From Burkholderiaceae bacterium (GTDB taxonomy: Bacteria > Pseudomonadota > Gammaproteobacteria > Burkholderiales > Burkholderiaceae_B), in assembly GCA_017857895.1 (NCBI GenBank), contig JAFMCG010000010.1, positions 1 to 33,168 of the forward strand: a DNA stretch of 33,168 bases, read 5' to 3'. The translations under genes were made by a program, and so were the position numbers. Positions 29,088 to 32,553 of the stretch are shown in pieces. Within the stretch, counting starts at the first letter, position 1. The number at the start of each line of letters is the position of its first letter. The notes beneath the pieces are model-generated. The model was not told the DNA's origin, searched no databases, and saw nothing but the letters and a program-made list of their open reading frames with translations.

Positions 29088-29102
29088 TGTTGCAATGCAA
29101 CA
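29088..29102. promoter_or_regulatory. Putative PhbF/PhaR-type operator TGTTGCAATGCAACA
   Basis: Perfect 6-bp palindromic arms with AAT spacer. Fits the PhbF motif TG[N]TGC[N]3GCAA as I recall it from Herbaspirillum work. Lies 45-59 bp upstream of the GTG start at 29147. Confidence 0.55.
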
Positions 29103-29146: not shown

Positions 29147-31591
29147 GTGAGCGATCAAACGTCCGAGCATCCCCATCCAGTGCCTTTACTGCCGCCTGCA
29201 ATTGATGCGGCACTTGAATACGCCGTTGACAGTTGGCAACGTAGCGTGTTGTACGCCGATGTGATGCGCCAACGTGGCAACCAGTATCAGCGCCACATGT
29301 CTAAGCAAGCCCCGAATGTGCTGAGTATGAAAGCTGAGGTGATACTCGACGGACGCACACTAAAAAGACCTGTCAATTACATCCTAACGCGAATCACACC
29401 ACCGAAATCGATACCCATTGACCCAATCAAAAGGCCATTTGTGGTGGTTGATCCGCGCGCCGGTCACGGACCTGGCATTGCAGGCTTCAAACCCGAAAGC
29501 GAGATTGGTGTTGCACTCGAGGCTGGGCATCCATGTTACTTCATCGGATTTTTGCCACGCCCTGAACCTGATCAAGGTGTCGAAGATGTGGTTTGGGCTG
29601 AGACTCGCTTTTTAGAAGAAGTTATTTCGCTTCACCCAGAGGCTGAGGGCAAGCCCGTGGTAATTGGCAACTGCCAGGCGGGCTGGCAGCTGATGATGGC
29701 GGCGTCCACCCGACCTGAACTTTTTGGCCCCATCATCATTGCGGGCGCGCCGCTGTCGTACTGGGCGGGTTGGCGCAACAAAAACCCCATGCGTTACACC
29801 GGCGGTATCACCGGTGGGTCTTGGATGACCACCATGTCTAGCGACTTGGGTGGTGGCGTGTTTGACGGTGCCAATTTGGTGCAGAACTTTGAAAACCTGC
29901 ATCCTGCAAACACCTACTGGTCAAAACAATACAACCTTTACGCCAACGTTGACACCGAGGCTAGTCGCTATTTGGGCTTTGAGCGCTGGTGGGGCGGGCA
30001 CGTCTTTTTAAATGGCAAAGAGATTCAGTACATTGTCGACAACCTTTTTGTTGGCAACAAGCTCTCAACCGCGCGCTTGGTCACCCAAGACGGCTTGCGT
30101 ATCGATTTGCGCAACATTCGTTCACCAATCATTGTGTTTTGTTCAAAGGGTGACAACATCACACCCCCACCACAAGCCTTGGGGTGGATTACGGACCTTT
30201 ATCAAAACGACAAAGAAGTGCTCGCACACGGGCAAACGATTATCTATGCCATCCATGAGAGCATCGGTCACTTGGGTATATTTGTGTCAGGCGCTGTGGC
30301 TAAAAAAGAGCACCGCGAATTTACTTGCAATATTGATCTGATCGATATGTTGCCACCCGGCATTTACGAAGCTGTGATCCGTGACAAAACACCAGACACA
30401 CCAAACGCTGATCTGGCTTACGGTGACTACGTTTTGACTTTTGAACGACGACACTTGGCTGACATTGAAGCCATTGTCCAGCCTCGTGAGGATGATGATC
30501 GTCGGTTTGCTGCCGTTTCTCGGATCTCACAAGTTAATCAAGGCCTTTACAAATCTTTTGTACAGCCGTGGGTGAAGGCTTTTGCCACACCACGCTCAAC
30601 TGAGCGTCGTGAACAAACCCACCCCCTGCGCATGCATTACGAGGCCGTGTCTGACAAGAATCCCATGATTGCTGCGCTGGCACCTGTAGCAGTGCAAGTC
30701 AGAAACAAACGTCGAAAAGCAACAGCAGACAACCCATTTGTGCAACTTGAAAAACAAATTTCAAAGTCAATCGAATCGTCTTTAGACCTTTGGGGTGAAT
30801 GGCGCGATGCCTTGATTGAACGCACCTTTATGGCAGTTTATGGCTCACCCTTGGTGCAAGACATCGCTGGCTTGGGTGCCCGAGAAGGTTCGCCACGCGA
30901 GCATCCCGGCGTGTCACCCGAGCACATTGCCTTCGTTCGTCGCCGAGTCGATGAACTGCGCAAGTTGGTGCAATGTGGTGGTCTAAGAGAAGCTAGCATC
31001 CGAGTCATGATGTACATCGCACAAGCACAAGGTGGCATCGACTCTCGCAGCTTTAATCTGATCCGGCAGCTGCGAGCCCAACAAGAACACTCACTAAGCC
31101 TAGCGGCTTTTAAGGAACTGGTGCGTGAGCAAGCCATGGTGATGGTGGTTGACCCTGAAGGCGCGGTAGCTGCTATCCCAGGCCTTTTGAGCCACCACAG
31201 TGCCTCTGAAATAGAAGCAGCGCTCGAGTTTGTAACGCGGGTGGCGACGGCTAGCGGCGCACTGAACGCTGAAGGCAAAAAACGCTTGGCGCAAGTGGCA
31301 AGGTTCTATCACTTGGCCGCGCAACAATCGGGCCAGACCCAAGAAGTTGATGGCTTAACTGCGGTTAACTTACGACGCCCGTTAGAAACGAACTTAGCAA
31401 ACAACACCAGCAGCGATGTGCGTGAACCTGCTTTAACCAAAACCGTGATTGAGAAGACACCAGCTAAAAAAGTTGCTGCCAAAAAAGCTGTTGCTAAAAA
31501 AGTGGTTGCTCGGTCTACTGCCACTAAAAAGGTAACGGTTAAACCGACGACTTCTGCAACGGCAAAACGGGTTAAGAAGGCGATCGTTTGA
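29147..31591 (+). CDS. DUF3141 / PhaC-like alpha/beta-hydrolase with histone-like C-terminal Lys/Ala tail
   Basis: VVIGNCQAGWQ nucleophile elbow with Cys; CSKGDNITPPPQ Asp region; ESIGHLGIFVSG His region; tail KKVAAKKAVAKKVVARSTATKKVTVKPTTSATAKRVKKAIV. GTG at 29147 (AAGG upstream) preferred over the TTG at 29087. Confidence 0.82.
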   Translation: MSDQTSEHPHPVPLLPPAIDAALEYAVDSWQRSVLYADVMRQRGNQYQRHMSKQAPNVLSMKAEVILDGRTLKRPVNYILTRITPPKSIPIDPIKRPFVVVDPRAGHGPGIAGFKPESEIGVALEAGHPCYFIGFLPRPEPDQGVEDVVWAETRFLEEVISLHPEAEGKPVVIGNCQAGWQLMMAASTRPELFGPIIIAGAPLSYWAGWRNKNPMRYTGGITGGSWMTTMSSDLGGGVFDGANLVQNFENLHPANTYWSKQYNLYANVDTEASRYLGFERWWGGHVFLNGKEIQYIVDNLFVGNKLSTARLVTQDGLRIDLRNIRSPIIVFCSKGDNITPPPQALGWITDLYQNDKEVLAHGQTIIYAIHESIGHLGIFVSGAVAKKEHREFTCNIDLIDMLPPGIYEAVIRDKTPDTPNADLAYGDYVLTFERRHLADIEAIVQPREDDDRRFAAVSRISQVNQGLYKSFVQPWVKAFATPRSTERREQTHPLRMHYEAVSDKNPMIAALAPVAVQVRNKRRKATADNPFVQLEKQISKSIESSLDLWGEWRDALIERTFMAVYGSPLVQDIAGLGAREGSPREHPGVSPEHIAFVRRRVDELRKLVQCGGLREASIRVMMYIAQAQGGIDSRSFNLIRQLRAQQEHSLSLAAFKELVREQAMVMVVDPEGAVAAIPGLLSHHSASEIEAALEFVTRVATASGALNAEGKKRLAQVARFYHLAAQQSGQTQEVDGLTAVNLRRPLETNLANNTSSDVREPALTKTVIEKTPAKKVAAKKAVAKKVVARSTATKKVTVKPTTSATAKRVKKAIV
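31466..31510 (+). repeat. Three 15-bp tandem imperfect repeats (AAAAAAGnTGnTGCy) encoding KKVAA-KKAVA-KKVVA
   Basis: Read directly: AAAAAAGTTGCTGCC, AAAAAAGCTGTTGCT, AAAAAAGTGGTTGCT. Confidence 0.85.
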
Positions 31592-32553
31592 TTAAATCCA
31601 CACAAAAACAACCCGCTCATCATGAGCTTGTTAAGTTCGACGCGCTGATTAAAGCCGCTCAAAAGGTACCCACGCAAACTTGTGCCGTGGCTCACCCCTG
31701 TGATGAGACGTCTTTATCAGCCGTGGTTCAAGCACACGCTTTAAATATCATTGATCCTATTTTGATCGGTCCTCGCCACAAAATAGAAAAAATGGCAACA
31801 GCTGCTGCTTTGGATATCATGGGTTTTAAGATCATCGATGTGCCTCACAGCCACGCGGCTGCGGCCGAGGCCGTTGCACAAGTTCGGGCAGGCAACGCCA
31901 GTCTTTTGATGAAGGGTAGCCTACACACCGATGAGTTAATGCATGAAGTCGTCAATCCTCAGACCGGACTGAGAACGGCACGGCGACTGAGTCATGTTTT
32001 CTTAATGGATGTGCCGACCTACGCGGAGCTGCTTTTTATCACTGATGCAGCAATCAACATCGCCCCAGATTTGCTTTGCAAGGCAGACATTGTTCAAAAC
32101 GCCATTGACTTGCACCTTGCCTTGGGTTTTGGCACACCACGAGTGGCGATTCTCTCAGCGGTCGAGCAAGTCAATCCAAAGATTCCGAGCACCGTTGATG
32201 CGGCCGCTTTGTGCAAGATGGCTGAACGTGGTCAGATCACTTCGGGCCTCTTAGATGGGCCACTCGCCATGGATAACGCCATCAGTCCCCAAGCGGCTCT
32301 GATGAAGGGCTTGAGGTCCGAAGTAGCTGGCCACGCACAGATTTTGGTGGTGCCTGATCTAGAGTCAGGCAATATGCTGGCCAAAAATTTGACGTTTTTG
32401 ACAGGCGCTGACGCCGCTGGCATTGTGCTCGGCGCAAAAGTACCCATCGTCTTAACAAGCCGTGCTGATTCCGAGTCAGCCCGCTTGGCTTCGTGCGCTG
32501 TCGCCACACTTTACGCGCATCATGTAGCCTCACAGCCGCCTCAAATCAAGTGA
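31588..32553 (+). CDS. Phosphate acetyl/butyryltransferase family protein (Pta/Ptb)
   Basis: AHPCDETSLSAVVQAHALNIIDPILIGPRHKI...SLLMKGSLHTDELM...RLSHVFLMDVPTY...LVVPDLESGNMLAKNLTFLTGADAAGIVLGAKVPIVLTSRAD. TTG start overlapping the upstream stop (TTGA). Confidence 0.9.
   Translation: MIKSTQKQPAHHELVKFDALIKAAQKVPTQTCAVAHPCDETSLSAVVQAHALNIIDPILIGPRHKIEKMATAAALDIMGFKIIDVPHSHAAAAEAVAQVRAGNASLLMKGSLHTDELMHEVVNPQTGLRTARRLSHVFLMDVPTYAELLFITDAAINIAPDLLCKADIVQNAIDLHLALGFGTPRVAILSAVEQVNPKIPSTVDAAALCKMAERGQITSGLLDGPLAMDNAISPQAALMKGLRSEVAGHAQILVVPDLESGNMLAKNLTFLTGADAAGIVLGAKVPIVLTSRADSESARLASCAVATLYAHHVASQPPQIK

Follow-up and report, generated by a model that had tools for sequence, protein, structure and literature searches.

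A DUF3141 protein with a PhaC-like catalytic core and a basic tail appears to belong to the PhaR-controlled polyhydroxyalkanoate system

The window analysed here (the whole stretch of DNA, 33,168 nucleotides) encodes an 814-residue DUF3141 protein that very probably belongs to the polyhydroxyalkanoate (PHA) system. Our best reading, to which we assign a probability of roughly 0.5, is that it is a PhaR-controlled, granule-associated Cys-Asp-His acyltransferase of the PhaC superfamily, probably acting in PHA chain cleavage or transfer. The evidence comes from its catalytic core, from a PhaR-type box upstream of the gene and its homologs, and from relatives that have been described under other names.

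The DUF3141 protein shares its fold and catalytic triad with PHA synthases

The features of the gene and its catalytic core are as follows.

29147–31591, plus strand: DUF3141 (PF11339) protein, a PhaC-superfamily alpha/beta-hydrolase of 814 aa (from the translation, the PF11339 match, the structure model and Foldseek)
29672–29674, plus strand: codon of Cys176, in the nucleophile elbow GNCQAG (from alignment, hhalign and model)
30152–30154, plus strand: codon of Asp336, in KGDNITP (from alignment, hhalign and model)
30269–30271, plus strand: codon of His375, in IGHLGIF (from alignment, hhalign and model)

The open reading frame starts with GTG, about 9 nt downstream of a Shine-Dalgarno-like AAGG. 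Its product is a full-length member of a known, uncharacterised family: in a Pfam scan, residues 28–605 matched PF11339 with 933 bits (curated cut-off 29.7), covering model positions 1–579 of 582.

A first-pass annotation, made from the sequence, had placed the Cys, Asp and His of a PhaC-like core at exactly these codons and had proposed that their order is intact. Both points held. Cys176, Asp336 and His375 are invariant in 39 aligned homologs from beta-, gamma- and alphaproteobacteria and Desulfobacterales. Across a larger set, GHLGIFVS is present in 103/103 sequences, GNCQ(A/G)G in 102/103 (the pattern did not catch the remaining one) and G-D-x-[IV]-x-P in 102/103, with the Asp kept even in the exception. 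When alignments of DUF3141 and PhaC were compared using hhalign (E 2.3e-6, probability 77%), C176, D336 and H375 fell, unguided, on the catalytic residues 272, 428 and 456 of the genome's own PhaC. The AlphaFold2 model (built from 39 sequences; pLDDT 81, pTM 0.81) is an alpha/beta-hydrolase in which the Cys follows strand 171–175, the Asp follows strand 328–333 and the His follows strand 364–370. The first-pass annotation had suggested a Foldseek comparison with PhaC and a survey of triad retention among DUF3141 homologs; the invariance described above answers the second, and in the first the top eight PDB matches were all PHA synthase chains (9knj, 6k3c, 9knk, 5xav and 5t6o; best E 5e-8). Searching the PDB with a sequence profile returned no match, unlike the fold comparison.

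The common ground with PhaC is limited to the fold and the triad, and membership in the PHA synthase family fails. Against the class I PhaC model TIGR01838, the protein scored 22 bits in the NCBIfam scan, far under the cut-off of 622.65. Unlike class I PhaC, it has no Pfam match to PhaC_N (PF07167; 236.9 bits for the true PhaC of a relative), and it carries an extra helical C-terminal region and a tail. The intracellular PHB depolymerase models PF06850 and PF10503 were likewise unmatched in the Pfam scan, and neither the Pfam nor the NCBIfam scan gave a phasin-type match. The genome encodes a separate, normal phaC, as well as PhaR (beside phaC and phaB) and a phasin.

A PhaR-type box is conserved upstream of beta- and gammaproteobacterial homologs

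29088–29102, no strand assigned: PhaR/PhbF-type operator-like palindrome TGTTGCAATGCAACA, which fits TG[N]TGC[N]3GCAA and is conserved upstream of homologs and phasins

The palindrome TGTTGCAATGCAACA sits 44 nt upstream of the GTG start. The sequence that it fits is the DNase I-footprinted operator of PhbF, the PhaR orthologue of Herbaspirillum seropedicae (PMC3206438). As one box match in one window means little, the case is made from conservation across loci only; occurrences of TTGCNNNGCAA within the window (5 found, 2.3 expected) are not significant and were discarded as evidence. In the 200 nt upstream of the gene, TGCRNYGCA was present at 15/15 beta and 47/47 gamma loci, compared with 0.30 and 0.93 expected from same-locus tiles, although these loci are mutually related and the counts are not independent. 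It was found upstream in just 2/21 alpha/delta homolog loci, and three more divergent betas outside the 15/15 set (L017, L019 and L020) have no box upstream.

Set against the kinship of the loci are several features of the box. In all loci but one, it lies about 28 to 175 nt from the start. Its central triplet varies yet stays R-N-Y in 65/74 cases, and sampled upstream regions are only 50–69% identical. Bases outside the search pattern are conserved as well, namely T at -3 (61/64), C at +10 (61/64) and A at +11 (63/64). In Burkholderiales and Halomonadaceae, 34 of the 41 ORFs chosen at phasin loci also have the box near their start, and several of the remaining seven are unlike phasin. Two copies precede the phasin gene of the genome itself. 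A search of ten selected loci with a simple pattern found no Pho-box-like repeats upstream.

From the sequence, we infer that PhaR recognizes 29088–29102, and the DUF3141 gene appears to be under this PHA-sensing repressor in beta- and gammaproteobacteria. In one relative, phaR, phaC and the DUF3141 gene follow one another on a single strand, overlapping or 17 nt apart. Together with the recovery of PhbX from granules (see below), the box and this operon make the PHA link stronger than the first-pass annotation knew. In the literature searched, we found no report of this conserved PhaR-type box, which unifies PhaC2, PhbX and DUF3141.

A tandem pair of PhaR-type boxes, spaced by 55 nt as at phasin promoters, was also observed in genome G000 (contig C97, 19156–19225; L190, 4157–4226). 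The two boxes lie between coq7-like and pgi-like ORFs, with no evident gene to control.

DUF3141 proteins have been described under other names

DUF3141 has been called a depolymerase (PMC8050969) and has been listed as a PHA polymerase (PMC11878206). We take DUF3141 to correspond to PhaC2 of Halomonas, and probably also to PhbX and to orfA of Sinorhizobium meliloti.

First, the triad, together with a GxCxA box and an extended C-terminus, was reported for PhaC2 of Halomonas TD01, and it was suggested that the protein may represent a new class of synthase; its homologs, one of them in Aromatoleum, are 81–92 kDa in size (PMC3227634). The box of PhaC2 is GNCQAG, its C-terminal pI is 9.6–10.1, and histone-like matches have been mentioned (PMC8686332). 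PhaC2 of Halomonas bluephagenesis TD01 and sp. O-1 thus resembles the protein studied here in GNCQAG, the Cys-Asp-His triad, a size of 89–93 kDa and the long basic C-terminus, and a LysR gene lies upstream of TD01 phaC2 as it does at the DUF3141 gene of Vreelandella (L065). It differs in adjoining topA rather than pta and in having been described as a possible synthase, and it was matched here by description, not by sequence. As possible DNA binding by PhaC2-type C-termini was raised in 2021 (PMC8686332), the idea of a fused anchor is partly anticipated in the literature. The first-pass annotation overstated the novelty of the protein: the triad, the variant box and the long C-terminus had been published for Halomonas TD01 PhaC2 in 2011.

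Second, PhbX of Pseudomonas extremaustralis, a 93.5 kDa protein, was recovered from granules and did not complement a PHA-negative strain (PMC4041789). It is an alpha/beta-hydrolase, encoded next to phasin and PhbF, where P. umsongensis GO16 has its DUF3141 gene (PMC8601165). Its authors, however, found no synthase key residues (PMC4041789). PhbX is probably a DUF3141 protein, considering its gene order and size (synteny, not sequence).

Third, the resemblance to orfA of S. meliloti comes from the neighboring genes.

The gene neighborhood varies among homologs

31588–32553, plus strand: phosphate acetyl/butyryltransferase (pta/ptb) gene, whose TTG start overlaps the DUF3141 stop (TTGA)

The order DUF3141-pta-ackA-fabI is found in Sinorhizobium (including S. 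meliloti), in Bradyrhizobium, in a Burkholderia and on a Cupriavidus plasmid; ackA of the genome studied here is on another contig. As this order agrees with that of orfA-pta-ackA-fabI, we take it to be the S. meliloti orfA operon, which is reported (PMC8231600, citing Summers 1999) to be phosphate-starvation induced and PhoB-dependent. Thus orfA is like the gene studied here in that DUF3141 comes first in the same order; it differs, as most alpha homologs do, in being without the tail and the PhaR-type box, and in its reported PhoB control. The pta neighbor is dispensable, as the 91%-identical sister of the DUF3141 gene has no pta there. In the available flanks of most Halomonadaceae homologs and of the 91% sister, we found no pta, ackA or fabI.

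Two other observations concern neighboring genes. A topA gene (DNA topoisomerase I) is near the DUF3141 gene in 41 loci, mostly of Halomonadaceae, and is downstream of it in L045 and L065. In genome G006, L034 (4914–8324) holds an apparent in-frame DUF3141-tail-Pta fusion (1108 aa, in an ORF of 1136 aa). This fusion was dropped as evidence for an interaction because it may be an assembly error: an unfused relative has one A fewer in a homopolymer at the junction, and the fusion comes from a low-coverage MAG.

Chain cleavage or transfer is the preferred reading

Under the preferred reading, PhaR control would lead to the DUF3141 protein being made together with the phasin upon granule formation. 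Cys176 would then take up a 3-hydroxyalkanoate chain or 3-hydroxyacyl-CoA as an acyl-thioester, allowing either chain transfer or the thiolytic release of 3-hydroxyacyl-CoA. The coupled Pta/Ptb, joined in many relatives by AckA and FabI, may interconvert the released acyl-CoA and acyl-phosphate, recovering CoA or ATP. In the weakest step, the polycationic disordered tail would probably bind DNA or a different polyanion through its charge, as is thought for the tails of PhaM and PhaF.

That the chemistry is chain transfer or thiolysis rather than polymerisation is a tentative proposal, held at somewhat less than even odds. It is likelier than primary polymerisation, as two homologs on their own made no PHA and the genome has a separate true phaC. 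The release direction is supported by the distribution of depolymerases, which we scanned for as the PF06850 and PF10503 families. PF06850 is missing from 7/9 and PF10503 from 9/9 genomes of the same genus (G000–G008, some of them incomplete), and the genome studied here has neither, yet genomes of the genus carry DUF3141 and phasin. Halomonas TD01, by comparison, has three other PhaZ candidates (PMC3227634), so no depolymerase is missing there. Other observations weaken the preferred reading. The box is nearly absent from alpha homologs, and the S. meliloti operon is reported to be PhoB-controlled. In addition, some box-bearing homologs have no basic tail, and the 91% sister has no adjoining pta.

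The alternative that survives best, although unlikely, is a true PHA synthase belonging to a class of its own ("PhaC2 with GxCxA box"), perhaps with a partner subunit or an unusual substrate. This was proposed by the authors of PMC3227634, and it agrees with the complete triad, the PhaC fold and the phaR-phaC-DUF3141 operon of one relative. However, the protein falls far short of the synthase cut-off (22 vs 622.65 bits) and is without PhaC_N, two homologs were negative in expression or complementation tests (Halomonas sp. O-1 PhaC2, which yielded no PHA in E. coli, PMC8686332; PhbX, PMC4041789), and the genome already has a normal phaC.

Somewhat less probable still is a thioesterase or acyltransferase of an acyl-CoA/acyl-phosphate pathway. 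It would serve phosphate or acetate metabolism alongside Pta, AckA and FabI, and its link to PHA in betas and gammas would be secondary. The DUF3141-pta-ackA-fabI order in alphas and some betas, the overlap with pta in the window and the PhoB control reported in S. meliloti (PMC8231600) are all consistent with such an enzyme. It accounts poorly for the absence of these genes from the available flanks of most Halomonadaceae homologs and of the 91% sister, for the PhaR-type box in the 15/15 beta and 47/47 gamma sets, and for the location of PhbX on granules (PMC4041789). Finally, a granule protein with a structural or regulatory role, catalytically silent but still with the PhaC fold, would fit the two negative activity tests and the large added helical region without a significant structural match, but it is improbable, as a dead enzyme is not expected to keep its Cys, Asp and His and their surroundings invariant in distant homologs.

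A broader version of the preferred reading, which we regard as speculative and rather unlikely to hold in full, is that DUF3141 proteins are a distinct PhaR-controlled granule class of Cys-triad thiolytic depolymerases or chain-transferases. With Pta/Ptb and AckA, they would recover the carbon of PHA in the form of acyl-CoA, acyl-phosphate and ATP, while the charge-conserved tail of betas and gammas would tie granule turnover to the nucleoid. If so, DUF3141 would be the missing PHB mobilisation enzyme where PF06850 and PF10503 are absent, as in most of the genus. A widespread DUF that has variously been annotated as synthase, depolymerase or hypothetical can now be placed in a single regulatory circuit under a single set of names. 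Its role in making bioplastic or turning it over thereby becomes open to immediate test, and Halomonas is used industrially as a PHA host.

The C-terminal region ends in a basic tail that retains its charge

30452–31336, plus strand: all-helical C-terminal region, residues 436–730, weakly TerB-like near its end (from models and Foldseek)
31340–31588, plus strand: disordered C-terminal tail, residues 732–814, with its basic K/A-rich part at about 758–814 (from Pfam/NCBIfam scans, the model and homolog comparison)

The helical region, modelled alone (pTM 0.47), had no significant Foldseek match to solved structures. The best match was 2h5n (probability 0.87 but E 1.3); the tellurite-resistance TerB-type protein 2ou3 was listed as well (E 5.0), and we take both to have the TerB-like fold. 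The first-pass annotation had noted a weakly TerB-like stretch, to which the 2h5n match lends slight support without establishing it.

From residue 732 onwards, pLDDT falls below 50 in the AlphaFold2 model, and the last 79 residues have a net charge of +15. The tail is real coding sequence, as the 91% sister and many relatives carry it in frame. Among the homologs tested, the tail reaches 40 residues or more in all 16 betas, 77% of gammas and 17% of alphas, and the last 40 residues have a charge of at least +4 in 94%, 79% and 22%, respectively. The tail thus recurs in betas and many gammas and is not a quirk of one genome; its absence from all close homologs, along with failure to bind DNA, had been named by the first-pass annotation as an outcome that would count against it. 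Of the histone-like DNA-binding tail claimed there, a basic, K/A-rich, disordered tail is real, but the HC2/histone H1-like models stayed below their cut-offs (20.9 vs 40 bits in Pfam; 19.8 vs 80 in NCBIfam). We rejected this likeness as evidence of homology, as it is driven by composition as well as being below cut-off.

Tails are frequent among homologs with a PhaR box and mostly missing elsewhere. The box is present at 48/51 tailed and 17/52 "untailed" loci (Fisher p 3e-11, kinship ignored). The threshold for calling a locus tailed was set arbitrarily, and several of those counted as "untailed" do have long tails, though with less charge. Several short-tailed Halomonadaceae homologs keep a PhaR-type box. 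In G005, a relative of the same genus, the long-tailed copy (L009) has the box, with extreme C-terminal residues that are not strongly basic, and a second, untailed paralogue (L225) has no box. The sequence of the tail evolves almost freely: relative to the 91% sister, 36/78 tail residues have changed (46%) compared with 40/735 in the core (5%), a rate about 8x faster. What is kept tends to be net charge rather than sequence. As short-tailed Halomonadaceae homologs still carry the box and the tail diverges so fast, the tail is not required for the function of the family.

This divergence, and a length that ranges from about 10 to 295 residues with several homologs tailless, would also be expected of functionless low-complexity sequence under weak selection for charge or solubility. 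We regard this as a serious alternative for the tail, if one that falls a little short of an even chance, as the last 40 residues remain positively charged in most betas and gammas despite the divergence, and the presence of the tail tracks the PhaR box (kinship again ignored). The tail could plausibly be anchored by its charge to DNA or to some other polyanion, and perhaps to the nucleoid; that DNA in particular is the target we hold at a little below even odds. The tail resembles those of PhaM, PhaF and HC2 in being disordered and lysine/alanine-rich, and differs in being borne by an enzyme without a phasin-type match. PhaM connects granules to the nucleoid (PMC3556143), and the granules of H. 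seropedicae were found to carry an HC2 protein (PMC3783465). As tailed and untailed homologs exist, both of them in the genome of one relative, the role of the tail becomes a clean experiment.

Genome G000 also encodes a histone H1/HC2-like protein (contig C153, 25367–25885; L234, 1498–2025; 105 bits against a cut-off of 40), which consists almost wholly of KKAPAKKV-type repeats and has a relative on H. seropedicae PHB granules.
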